From a virus: a DNA stretch of 38,042 bases. Position 1 is the first letter of the stretch. Each line of letters opens with the position of its first letter. The notes below the pieces were generated by a model. The model did no database searches. It saw only the letters and a program-made list of their open reading frames with translations, and had not been told where the DNA came from. The stretch lies in the IMG/VR virus record IMGVR_UViG_3300044796_000040, positions 1-38,042 of that record; one strand, given 5' to 3'. Made by a program: the position numbers and the translations under genes. This document shows, piece by piece, positions 9,566 to 25,232 of the stretch.

Positions 9566-10048
9566 ATGTCGTTTGGGCCGAAGCAAACTTTACAAGAAGG
9601 TTTTGAAAAATTCGTTGTAAAGAATCCCGAAGGATGTTGGGAGTGGAAAGGCTGCAGGCCTAAAAATCCTGGTTATGGTCAATTCCGTCATGGATCAAAG
9701 TTAGAGCGTGCTCATAGAGCGTCATGGATGATTCATTTTGGAGATATACCTAAGGGAATATTTGTATTACATAAATGTGATAACCATGAATGTTCTAATC
9801 CCGAGCATTTATTTTTAGGAACTAATTTAGATAATATAAAAGATATGTTATCTAAAAATAGACATCCCACTATTGGTAAAAAAGGAAATAATCTTGGAAA
9901 GAGATTAAATGAGGATCAAGTTAGAGAAATAAGAAAACTTGGATCAGAAAAAAATATCTCTGCTAAAGAAATGGCCACTTTGTTTAAAGTTAATCCAGTT
10001 ACAATCAGAGAAATTTTAAGAATAAATTCTTGGAAGGATTTACAATGA
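9566..10048 (+). CDS. Free-standing HNH homing endonuclease with HTH tail
   Basis: 160 residues with ribosome site GGAG seven bases before ATG. The HNH core is at residues ~20-95: C-W-E-W-K-G, Y-G-Q-F, A-H-R-A-S-W, then V-L-H-K-C-D-N, C-S-N-P-E-H-L-F-L-G-T. Residues ~110-155 form a helix-turn-helix ending I-N-S-W-K-D-L, as in other phage HNH nucleases. The stop codon shares bases with the start of the 1179-residue fibre gene (ATGA), and the fibre's ribosome site AAGGA lies inside this gene. The insertion is thus precisely tucked in front of the fibre without breaking it. Confidence 0.85.
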   Translation: MSFGPKQTLQEGFEKFVVKNPEGCWEWKGCRPKNPGYGQFRHGSKLERAHRASWMIHFGDIPKGIFVLHKCDNHECSNPEHLFLGTNLDNIKDMLSKNRHPTIGKKGNNLGKRLNEDQVREIRKLGSEKNISAKEMATLFKVNPVTIREILRINSWKDLQ

Positions 10049-22632: not shown

Positions 22633-23055
22633 ATGAAACGAGCACTAGTGTTTTTTATGACCTTACCACTATCAGCAATGAATCAAGTTACTCCTGTAGA
22701 TCAAGCAGCAGAACAAGCATATACAACATTCTTTCGTAGAGATGAGTCTACGCATACTTCTTTAATCAAGCCTTACATAGCACAAGTCATGGACGAAGTA
22801 CGCAAATCTTCCCCACCACACGACGATGATTCTATAGTTGATAAGTTAGAACGAGGACAACTCAATCTTCGATCTGAGAAGGACTCTGAGCAACTTACAA
22901 ACATAATCATCAGAGCTATGGATAAATCATTTGAGCATCAACGTCTTGAAGATGATAAGAAGATAAGCAAGAAAGTCTCAGCGTATATAGCAGCAGCAGC
23001 AACATTGATATCAGCAGGCGTAACACTGACCATATTCTTAGTGAGTCATAAATGA
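22633..23055 (+). CDS. Membrane protein with signal-like N-terminus and C-terminal anchor
   Basis: 140 residues; AAGGAG lies six bases before ATG. Residues 1-16 (basic K-R, then A-L-V-F-F-M-T-L-P-L-S-A) look like a signal peptide. Residues ~115-137 (Y-I-A-A-A-A-T-L-I-S-A-G-V-T-L-T-I-F-L) are a transmembrane helix, and the part between is charged and helical. This topology suits a periplasmic protein anchored in the inner membrane. It could belong to lysis or superinfection exclusion, but no specific family is visible. Its stop overlaps the start of the large terminase. Confidence 0.6.
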   Translation: MKRALVFFMTLPLSAMNQVTPVDQAAEQAYTTFFRRDESTHTSLIKPYIAQVMDEVRKSSPPHDDDSIVDKLERGQLNLRSEKDSEQLTNIIIRAMDKSFEHQRLEDDKKISKKVSAYIAAAATLISAGVTLTIFLVSHK

Positions 23056-25232
23056 ATCTACGACCAGAAACACAGATAAGACTTAATGCATTCAGACCTC
23101 GAGAGTATCAGAAGGAATTCTGTAGAGTCTTTGAAGAGAATAAACTTAAACGATTCCTACTTATATGGCCACGACGATCAGGCAAGGATATATGTGCGCT
23201 GGCAATGATGGTGAGAGCAGCATTAAGGCGCGTAGGAACCTACTTTTATATCTTTCCTACATTCACATCAGGCCGCAGAATCTTATGGGATGCCATTGAT
23301 ATTCAAGGCAATCGCATCATGTATAAATACATTCCTGAAGAGATAATCGAATCTCGTAATGAGCAGCAGATGCGTATCAGACTGACTAATGGTTCACAGA
23401 TACTCATTTTAGGATCAGATAACTACGATACCGCTATTATCGGTACTAACGCAGTAGGCATGATCTTCTCGGAATATGCCCTTCAGGATTCTATGGCTTG
23501 GTCTCTATCAATACCTATTCTCAATGCCTCGGCAGGTTGGGCTCTGTTCGTATCAACACCACGTGGTAAGAACCACTTATGGTCTCTTTATAATGTTGCT
23601 GAAAACAATCCTAATTGGTTTTGCCAGAAACTATCCCTTGATGATACTTGTCACGTTCCCGTTGATGAGATAAGGCGTGAGATAGAAGAAGGACAGATGT
23701 CTGAAGATCTGGTTCAACAAGAATTCTACTGCTCCTTTGATCTTGGTGTTGAAGGTTCCTTTTATAGTAAGCATATGGATAATCTTCGTCTAAAGAGTCA
23801 GATTACTTCAGTTCCATGGGAACCATACTTCCCTGTTTTTACCGCTTGGGACTTAGGTTTTAATGACCCGACGACGATCATCTTCGCGCAAAAAATTGGT
23901 CAAACGATACGCATTATAGATTGCTATGAGAACACAAAGAAAGGACTGGATCATTATGCGAAGATTGTTAAAGAGAAGCCATATACATACTCTAAGCACT
24001 TGGCACCGTTTGATATTGCTGTACACGATCTTGGTACTGGGATATCTCGTTGGAAAACGATGCATGACTTGGGAATCACCTTCATCAAGTACGATACAAA
24101 GCAGCCAAGCATCGAAGACGGAATTGAAGCAGTGCGACGAAACTTGCCAAAGATGTGGTTTGATGAAACCAACTGTAAGTCTCTTATAAAGTCTCTTGAG
24201 AATTATAGGCAAGAATTTGATGTGAAGCGTAAAATCTATAAAGACAATCCACTTCACGATTGGTCCAGCCATTGGTGCTTTACGGGCGATACAAAAGTAT
24301 TGACACGTAGCGGAATGCGTCAGATAATAAACATTCAAGATAATGAAGAGATTCTTACGGCGAATGGATGGGAAAAATGTCTTGGCGCAAAGAATATGAG
24401 AAAGAATGTGAAGGTTATTCAAGTAGTCTTTGCAGATGGTGTCAAAGTGAGATGTACGCCGGATCATTTATTCTTGACGGAAAAAGGATGGATATCTGCA
24501 CAGAACCTAGAGAATGGATCGATGATCCTGTCATCCAAGATGATGGATCACAAAGATATAACAATAAAAGATACAAACTGCATGGACAAAAGTATTATCT
24601 TAGAACCTATGGCGCAAGATTGCACCGTGAAGTTTGGATTACAGCCTATGGAGATATTCCATCAGGTTGTCATATTCATCACAAAGATAGTGATACCGAA
24701 AATAACAAACTTTCTAACTTGGTTTGCTTGCCTGCTGAAGAGCACAGAAAATTACCAAAGCCAAACTGTAAAGGCGTTAGTAAAAAGACAAGAGATGCTG
24801 CTATCAAATGGCATGGTAGTGATGCAGGAAGAAAATGGCATAGTGAGCATGCAAAAAGAATTAAAAGTTGGGAAAAACATGTCCGAGTTAAAGGAGAATG
24901 TTTGTTCTGCAGAAAAGAAACTATGCTTCTGCAAAGGGAAAACAATTCCCAGAAGTTCTGTCACCCAAACTGCAAAGCATCTTATGGTAGAAAGAATAGA
25001 AAAAGTAGACGGAATGCATGATGTATGGTGTATTTTAGTTCCTAATTCAGGACATTTCTCGTTGTCTAATGGTGCTATAGTTAGTAACTGCGATGCAATG
25101 CGATATCTCTGTGTTGGGTTACCTCGTGTAGAGAATACATCTAATCCTGAAGCGCTTGAACGCAGATACCAAGAGGCAATGGGACATCAATCATTTCCTG
25201 GTATATTCAGTGACGACTTGCCGAATTACTGA
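23052..25232 (+). CDS. terL: Terminase large subunit interrupted by an intein
   Basis: 726 residues as translated, 455 after removal of a 271-residue intein. The ATPase half has Walker A W-P-R-R-S-G-K-D (39-46), a Walker B-like M-I-F-S-E and the coupling motif V-S-T-P-R-G. The nuclease half has D267 in A-W-D-L-G-F, D326 in V-H-D-L-G and the last acid D681 in C-D-A-M-R-Y. The intein sits between Trp408 and Cys680, splitting the final nuclease motif S-S-H-W/C-D-A-M-R-Y, so the nuclease should be inactive until splicing. The enzyme pumps DNA into the prohead through the portal and cuts it. The start overlaps the preceding stop (ATGA). Confidence 0.9.
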   Translation: MNLRPETQIRLNAFRPREYQKEFCRVFEENKLKRFLLIWPRRSGKDICALAMMVRAALRRVGTYFYIFPTFTSGRRILWDAIDIQGNRIMYKYIPEEIIESRNEQQMRIRLTNGSQILILGSDNYDTAIIGTNAVGMIFSEYALQDSMAWSLSIPILNASAGWALFVSTPRGKNHLWSLYNVAENNPNWFCQKLSLDDTCHVPVDEIRREIEEGQMSEDLVQQEFYCSFDLGVEGSFYSKHMDNLRLKSQITSVPWEPYFPVFTAWDLGFNDPTTIIFAQKIGQTIRIIDCYENTKKGLDHYAKIVKEKPYTYSKHLAPFDIAVHDLGTGISRWKTMHDLGITFIKYDTKQPSIEDGIEAVRRNLPKMWFDETNCKSLIKSLENYRQEFDVKRKIYKDNPLHDWSSHWCFTGDTKVLTRSGMRQIINIQDNEEILTANGWEKCLGAKNMRKNVKVIQVVFADGVKVRCTPDHLFLTEKGWISAQNLENGSMILSSKMMDHKDITIKDTNCMDKSIILEPMAQDCTVKFGLQPMEIFHQVVIFITKIVIPKITNFLTWFACLLKSTENYQSQTVKALVKRQEMLLSNGMVVMQEENGIVSMQKELKVGKNMSELKENVCSAEKKLCFCKGKTIPRSSVTQTAKHLMVERIEKVDGMHDVWCILVPNSGHFSLSNGAIVSNCDAMRYLCVGLPRVENTSNPEALERRYQEAMGHQSFPGIFSDDLPNY
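24276..25088 (+). mobile_element. Intein in the large terminase (codons 409-679)
   Basis: The element starts with C-F-T-G-D-T-K-V-L-T (block A; Cys1 is the first splicing nucleophile). Block B is V-R-C-T-P-D-H-L-F-L-T, with the usual Thr and His. The C-terminal blocks are H-D-V-W-C-I-L-V-P and N-G-A-I-V-S-N, with the final Asn, and Cys680 is the +1 residue. The penultimate residue is Ser instead of the common His; active exceptions are known. The stretch between the splicing blocks (~24540-24985) does not look like an endonuclease in this frame, although it stays open. Another frame of the same DNA encodes an HNH nuclease. Confidence 0.88.
24488..25021 (+). CDS. HNH endonuclease encoded out of frame inside the intein
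   Basis: This frame is +2 relative to the terminase. I propose the ATG at 24488 (MDICTE..., with GGA six bases upstream), giving 177 residues; the frame is open from an ATG at 24368 (217 residues). The HNH core is L-H-R-E-V-W-I-T-A-Y-G, H-I-H-H-K-D, N-N-K-L-S-N-L and E-E-H-R-K-L. Further on, C-L-F-C and F-C-H-P-N-C form a zinc finger, and the end is very basic (G-R-K-N-R-K-S-R-R-N-A). The stop at 25021 lies 37 bases inside the intein's C-terminal splicing block. It would cut intein-less terminase genes. It is fully nested, and both frames stay open through the overlap. Confidence 0.82.
   Translation: MDICTEPREWIDDPVIQDDGSQRYNNKRYKLHGQKYYLRTYGARLHREVWITAYGDIPSGCHIHHKDSDTENNKLSNLVCLPAEEHRKLPKPNCKGVSKKTRDAAIKWHGSDAGRKWHSEHAKRIKSWEKHVRVKGECLFCRKETMLLQRENNSQKFCHPNCKASYGRKNRKSRRNA

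Follow-up and report, generated by a model that had tools for sequence, protein, structure and literature searches.

The window analyzed here is a 38,042-nucleotide viral contig (IMG/VR record IMGVR_UViG_3300044796_000040), and the locus of interest is its gene for the terminase large subunit (TerL). An intein interrupts this gene, and the DNA of the intein carries, in a second reading frame, an ORF for an HNH nuclease preceded by promoter-like and ribosome-binding sequences. The features are the following.

23052..25232, + strand: TerL ORF including the intein, 726 codons (phrog_2, 5.4e-28)
24276..24545, + strand: N-terminal splicing part of the intein, residues 1-90, with Cys1 and block B TPDH (pLDDT 92-95 over residues 1-80)
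24300..24305, + strand: -35 element TTGACA, within intein codons 9-10 (Leu9 is TTG in 32/32)
24308..24321, + strand: putative operator TAGCGGAATGCGTC, located between the -35 and -10 elements and closely resembling the reverse complement of the TerL D-A-x-R-Y codons
24323..24328, + strand: -10 element GATAAT, after a 17-nt spacer (Ile17 is ATA in 30/31)
24366..24373, + strand: Shine-Dalgarno-like GGATGGGA before the ATG at 24377 (duplex energy -6.0)
24377..25021, + strand: HNH nuclease ORF, at frame offset +2 relative to TerL (equivalent to -1), with an alternative ATG at 24368
24546..24974, + strand: intein linker, residues 91-233, the frame-shadow of the HNH gene, open and predicted to be disordered (pLDDT 31-39)
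24975..25088, + strand: C-terminal splicing part of the intein, residues 234-271, ending in SN and followed by Cys
25092..25105, + strand: D-A-M-R-Y codons of the C-extein, immediately following the +1 Cys and presumed to be the part of the homing site that is recognized

A Hint splicing domain and a nuclease in two frames

The TerL frame is continuous from 23052 to 25232 (726 amino acids), i.e., the host gene is not broken into two ORFs. The 271-residue intein (24276-25088) interrupts TerL at its C-terminal nuclease motif (...SHW^C-DAMRY...), running from Cys1 at 24276 to Asn271 at 25086-25088, with Cys as the +1 residue. The original prediction, which had been made from the DNA letters and their translations, placed the intein at exactly these coordinates with these splicing residues and TPDH. 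It also proposed searching both frames against databases, and in such searches the intein matches TIGR01445 (intein_Nterm) at 2.6e-8, with a score of 34.7 vs. a cut-off of 24.5, and Pfam Intein_splicing at 2.3e-8, slightly below the curated cut-off. The Pfam model matches all 33 aligned intein homologs with E <= 0.01. In this alignment, C1, T61, H64, and N271 are invariant and the +1 residue is C or S in 33/33, while the penultimate residue is His in 31/33 and Ser in the window and in one homolog (L003). In the AlphaFold model, residues 1-80 and 241-270 have a pLDDT of 92-95 and form a Hint fold on either side of the 143-residue disordered linker (residues 91-233, pLDDT 31-39). The top Foldseek matches are gp41-1 inteins (6qaz and 6riz), with an E value of 8e-8 and a TMt of 0.86 to 6riz. 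By its motifs, its modeled fold, and the existence of intein-free alleles (see below), the element is a Hint splicing domain, which would be expected to splice.

As for the second frame, it is open from 24347 to 25021, so that both frames run through the overlap as predicted. Its product matches HNH_3 (2.5e-14) and carries the anticipated zinc finger (CxxC...CxxxC) at its C terminus. The HNH stop does lie within the C-terminal splicing region, but about 45 nt into its structured part rather than 37. The catalytic (H/H/N/H) and zinc residues are invariant in 33 homologs. The structure model of the nuclease is good except for the low-confidence residues 1-25; its best fold match in the PDB is I-HmuI, which is weak (E 0.21), and searching PDB sequences with the HNH profile returned no credible match. 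Since the endonuclease sits at offset +2 in the window and its homologs, it is not part of the intein polypeptide as it would be in a bifunctional intein. The window contains a second HNH endonuclease gene (9566-10048), which directly precedes a large tail-spike-like gene and is only distantly similar (30%) to the nested nuclease.

Recurrence of the layout and probable maintenance of both frames

A scan of viral contigs with the window HNH protein yielded 80 loci. In 69 of these, a TerL intein contains the same HNH at the same offset and the TerL frame is open end to end. The HNH is found at offset +1 in two others, one with an open TerL frame (L044) and one with a closed frame (L055), and is free-standing in nine. 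A second scan, with an HNH profile, gave at least 488 relatives, from which 70 new loci were kept; in 69 of them, of which 42 are non-redundant with the first set, the offset is again +2 and the TerL frame is open, and in one the start of the intein falls at the contig edge. These counts support the original reading of the element as a splicing intein with a free nuclease out of frame. The same HNH in the TerL frame, which would have told against that reading, was sought among about 150 loci and found in none. Three phage records (TJE1, Highwayman, and Rhodobacteraceae phage LS06) share the layout, with TerL as the sole gene annotated at this place. A scan of genome contigs returned two loci, a Bacteroides bin with the HNH embedded at offset 2 (L098) and a Gemella locus in which it is not embedded in an open frame (L099). 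The intein-frame protein used alone as a query found no relatives, whereas the HNH query did, because the linker is not conserved. Judged by these sequences, the nested layout is widespread, rather than a one-off or an assembly slip. Six of the loci that share the nested layout (L064, L066-L069, and L080) come from genome IDs and are prophage-like contigs.

To estimate how many stops an unselected TerL frame would contain, synonymous HNH codons were shuffled. Across 53 non-redundant open overlaps, 0 stops are observed vs. 108.5 expected, with a summed log10 P of about -71 that ignores shared ancestry. It is therefore most likely, from this comparison over homologs, that selection maintains both frames. 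In the window overlap alone, the open TerL frame is unremarkable (P = 0.22). Expected stops per locus are mostly 0.2-4.6 in the offset +2 phase vs. 7-34 in the other phase, and this scarcity of chance stops may be the reason why offset +2 dominates. In the other phase, L044 has 0 stops vs. 9.1 expected. Free-standing HNH homologs have about as many stops as expected, with 6-11 in L057, L059, L061, L077, and L096.

The synonymous-site comparison suggested in the original prediction gave a further sign of constraint. Where the intein overlaps the N terminus of the HNH, its codons are restricted to those synonyms that keep the HNH residues unchanged (Asn44 AAT in 28/28, Leu47 CTT in 28/29, Pro62 CCG in 30/30, Leu88 TTG in 26/26), the AAT of Asn44 preserving an HNH Cys, while usage is near random at many other intein codon positions. 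The linker behaves differently. Its identity between homologs (residues 91-233) is 0.288 vs. 0.269 after synonymous recoding of the HNH, and it is predicted to be disordered, so that selection on the linker as a protein is unsupported. Since its similarity is about what HNH recoding alone predicts, it seems that what is maintained in the linker is its open frame, not its sequence.

Predicted start signals and a putative homing-site copy within intein codons

The first codons of the intein also contain what looks like a promoter. The arrangement TTGAC(A/G)-17 nt-GATAAT is found at intein nt 25-53 in 33/33 non-redundant inteins and agrees with the sigma70 consensus at 9-11 of 12 positions. Intein codons 9-17, which lie upstream of the HNH start where the HNH frame has stops, are locked synonymously. 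In held-out inteins, 36/42 score at least 9/12 at this fixed place vs. 0/4074 same-phase control positions. Downstream, the Shine-Dalgarno duplex energy is between -5 and -12 in most homologs and the HNH starts at +86 or +101 (L022, L028, L035, and L038, whose listed start is out of frame, were left out of this analysis). The nested HNH thus has its own predicted start signals, from which we infer that it is transcribed separately. In a more distant group, a uniform promoter at the same place is not general, with L064 and L048 as exceptions, so the promoter is a feature of the window's subfamily. In L064, a 12/12 promoter stands just before the HNH start; the C-extein end of this locus is 96% identical over 50 bases to that of a Clostridioides phage terminase.

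The spacer of the promoter carries TAnCGGAAnGnGTC, which is conserved at synonymous positions and resembles the reverse complement of the TerL D-A-(F/M)-R-Y codons that adjoin the insertion site (consensus 12/14). When scanned without a fixed register, similarity to the homing site is weak (9.88 vs. 9.32). A common reverse-strand register taken from that scan was then tested, and the test was repeated on held-out loci. This register is the best diagonal among 8800 profile comparisons. In the held-out loci, the consensus match is 11/14, the mean match is 8.39/14 vs. 3.51 in other registers, and the per-locus P is below 0.05 in 33/38. The match within a locus (8.39) is hardly better than that between loci (8.08), so what it shows is similarity that has been conserved and not co-evolution. 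The exact placement of the homing site with respect to the insertion differs among loci, which read either SHx^CDA or HDW^CSHxADA. The analysis suggests that the nuclease may repress its own promoter through this putative operator; as in I-TevI, the candidate operator overlaps the promoter and resembles the homing site, here by similarity to a presumed site.

Mobility, origin, and alternative readings

The trees of host gene and element conflict. In the TerL tree, the window groups with L005 and L009 (support 100), whereas in the HNH and intein trees it groups with L003 (support 100 and 98), and AU tests reject the exchanged groupings in the TerL, HNH, and intein trees (p = 1.7e-5, 1.4e-7, and 3.4e-4). 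On this phylogenetic evidence, the intein and its nested HNH were transferred jointly between TerL genes. The sequence statistics thus establish joint horizontal transfer, as they do open and conserved frames and conserved promoter-like and homing-site-like DNA. Intein-free alleles exist at the same site (L083 and L085-L089). They read SHW^ADA, and the window allele reads SHW^CDA, as expected if a splicing-competent +1 residue arrives with the element.

Together, these findings make it probable, and we hold this with considerable confidence, that the element is a mobile intein whose homing endonuclease is a complete gene nested in the second frame of the intein DNA rather than a domain of the intein protein. 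The steps that we infer, from splicing and transcription to cleavage and repression, would proceed as follows. Reading through the TerL frame would give a TerL-intein-TerL polypeptide from which the Hint domain (residues 1-90 and 234-271) would excise itself in cis, a long disordered loop occupying the place that the nuclease domain has in other inteins. A sigma70-type promoter and a Shine-Dalgarno site within the first 34 intein codons would drive independent expression of a separate HNH nuclease of about 214 residues from the -1 frame. This nuclease would cut intein-free TerL near the conserved D-A-x-R-Y codons, and repair would copy in the whole unit together with the +1 Cys/Ser codon needed for splicing. 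By binding the near-copy of this motif in the promoter spacer, the nuclease would repress its own promoter.

How the nested gene arose is a separate matter, and the original prediction had offered two routes. The favored route is that a free HNH gene invaded a mini-intein, because a free HNH gene of the same family lies directly after TerL in phages PAE1, CL2, and SN1, and because two of the relatives without an internal HNH that the prediction had called for, L057 and L065, are mini-inteins with a free HNH downstream, outside the intein; the second phase (offset +1, L044) also counts in its favor. The other route, in which paired frameshifts occurred in an ancestor whose HNH domain was in frame, fared less well. 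A uniform offset does suggest a single origin for most members, but the absence of an in-frame relative among about 150 loci, the own start and stop retained by the HNH, the two mini-inteins, and an offset that is the phase with few chance stops for an HNH gene make this origin unlikely. Indels in sequencing or assembly, which the prediction had named as its possible undoing, would be conceivable in a metagenome-type virus contig. However, the same offset recurs in more than 100 independent contigs, at 35-72% HNH identity, and in the TJE1, Highwayman, and LS06 records; an indel origin is refuted by this recurrence, and we give it virtually no weight.

Two further readings concern the role and expression of the nuclease in the window element. 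HNH proteins are encoded beside TerL in cos phages, and the nested HNH could be a partner of the terminase in packaging rather than a homing enzyme, considering that it is nearly always tied to TerL, including directly after it in the three phages above. This is distinctly unlikely since TerL relatives 75-80% identical (L083 and L085-L089) lack an HNH in the DNA examined, the HNH and TerL trees conflict, and the HNH promoter contains a near copy of the insertion-site sequence. Alternatively, -1 ribosomal frameshifting might produce the HNH fused to the N-terminal parts of TerL and intein, and the offset does correspond to a -1 shift in nearly all loci. Most loci nevertheless have their own Shine-Dalgarno site and start, in L006 and L014 the start at +101 is immediately preceded by a stop, L044 at offset +1 would need a different shift, and a conserved promoter lies just upstream of the HNH, all of which renders such a fusion highly improbable.

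The nested-gene reading sets the element apart from described systems, with which it shares several traits. Homing inteins are described as single bifunctional proteins, and in maxi-inteins such as the PI-MtuI RecA intein the endonuclease is in frame, in the same polypeptide. The window element resembles them in its Hint splicing domain, conserved insertion site, and mobility, but its nuclease is a separate product from another frame. Fractured genes, reportedly described by Dassa et al. in 2009, are said to have split inteins (gp41-1 and others) with a free-standing endonuclease between the halves. The likeness extends to gp41-1 inteins being the closest Hint structures and to a free nuclease gene between intein halves; in contrast, the window TerL frame is unbroken and splicing would be in cis. 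Vibrio phage 1.245.O (L094, 2384-3374) resembles a split version of the window layout: its TerL frame stops inside the intein, the HNH overlaps the intein, and the C-terminal intein part is a separate ORF annotated as a hint-domain protein. This looks like a route from nested layout to split intein, since loss of the open intein frame would turn the element directly into a split-intein fractured gene. We put forward tentatively, as quite possible, that these elements are a widespread intein class with three overlapping codes (a splicing protein, a self-repressed promoter with a homing-site mimic, and an independently translated -1-frame nuclease) and a possible ancestor of split inteins.

The closest precedent is the ShiLan domain, an out-of-frame HNH in a mycobacteriophage methylase insertion, which has no intein motifs or fold, is assumed to be non-splicing, and has a GTG start for which leaderless translation was proposed; its authors raise the question of how the HNH gets translated (Arsenault, Gosselin, and Gogarten 2025, PMC11855218). 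In both elements, the insertion is in frame and free of stops, has a patchy distribution, and encodes the HNH in its third frame, whereas only the window element has a complete Hint domain, a promoter, and a Shine-Dalgarno site, and the two nucleases are distant (E 4e-4 to the nested-HNH profile in a small search). The statement that no well-described equivalent was known thus has to be amended for ShiLan, while it stands for an out-of-frame nuclease in a true intein, of which we found no report in the literature searched, with many journals outside its coverage. Also absent from the original prediction were the wide occurrence of the family, the promoter and ribosome-binding site buried in the intein, and the homing-site copy. 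I-TevI acts as a repressor of its own promoter, by way of an operator that is similar to its homing site (reviewed in PMC2988022). I-TevI and other T4 intron endonucleases likewise have a promoter inside the element, overlapped by a homing-site-like operator, but these are GIY-YIG or HNH enzymes in RNA introns, whereas here the same logic, with a putative operator, would be at work inside protein-coding intein DNA.

The analysis implies that an intein can harbor its homing enzyme as a hidden gene of its own. What is new is that the first codons of the intein also encode a sigma70-like promoter, a ribosome site, and, in the promoter spacer, a near-copy of the presumed homing site. Splicing and homing would be uncoupled, yet locked together by overlapping frames. 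Mutations where the frames overlap are liable to damage both products, and the loss of the endonuclease that usually occurs may be slower as a result. The layout was probably overlooked as only one frame gets annotated: gene callers retain the long TerL frame alone, leaving nested nucleases unannotated even in isolates such as TJE1 and Highwayman, and single-frame gene calling may commonly have this blind spot. Testable links among mini-inteins, free homing genes, and natural split inteins are offered by the disordered but open loop, the buried promoter, and the split Vibrio version.

Two minor observations concern the insertions themselves. In L019, L027, L028, L033, and others, related inteins occupy two positions about four codons apart relative to D-A-x-R-Y, reading HDW^CSHxADAF or SHx^CDAF. 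In L014 (1576-4875), L015, and L026, the N-terminal part of TerL is split further, in L014 apparently by two extra in-frame insertions of about 1 kb each, and TerL genes of this type may carry up to three inteins.
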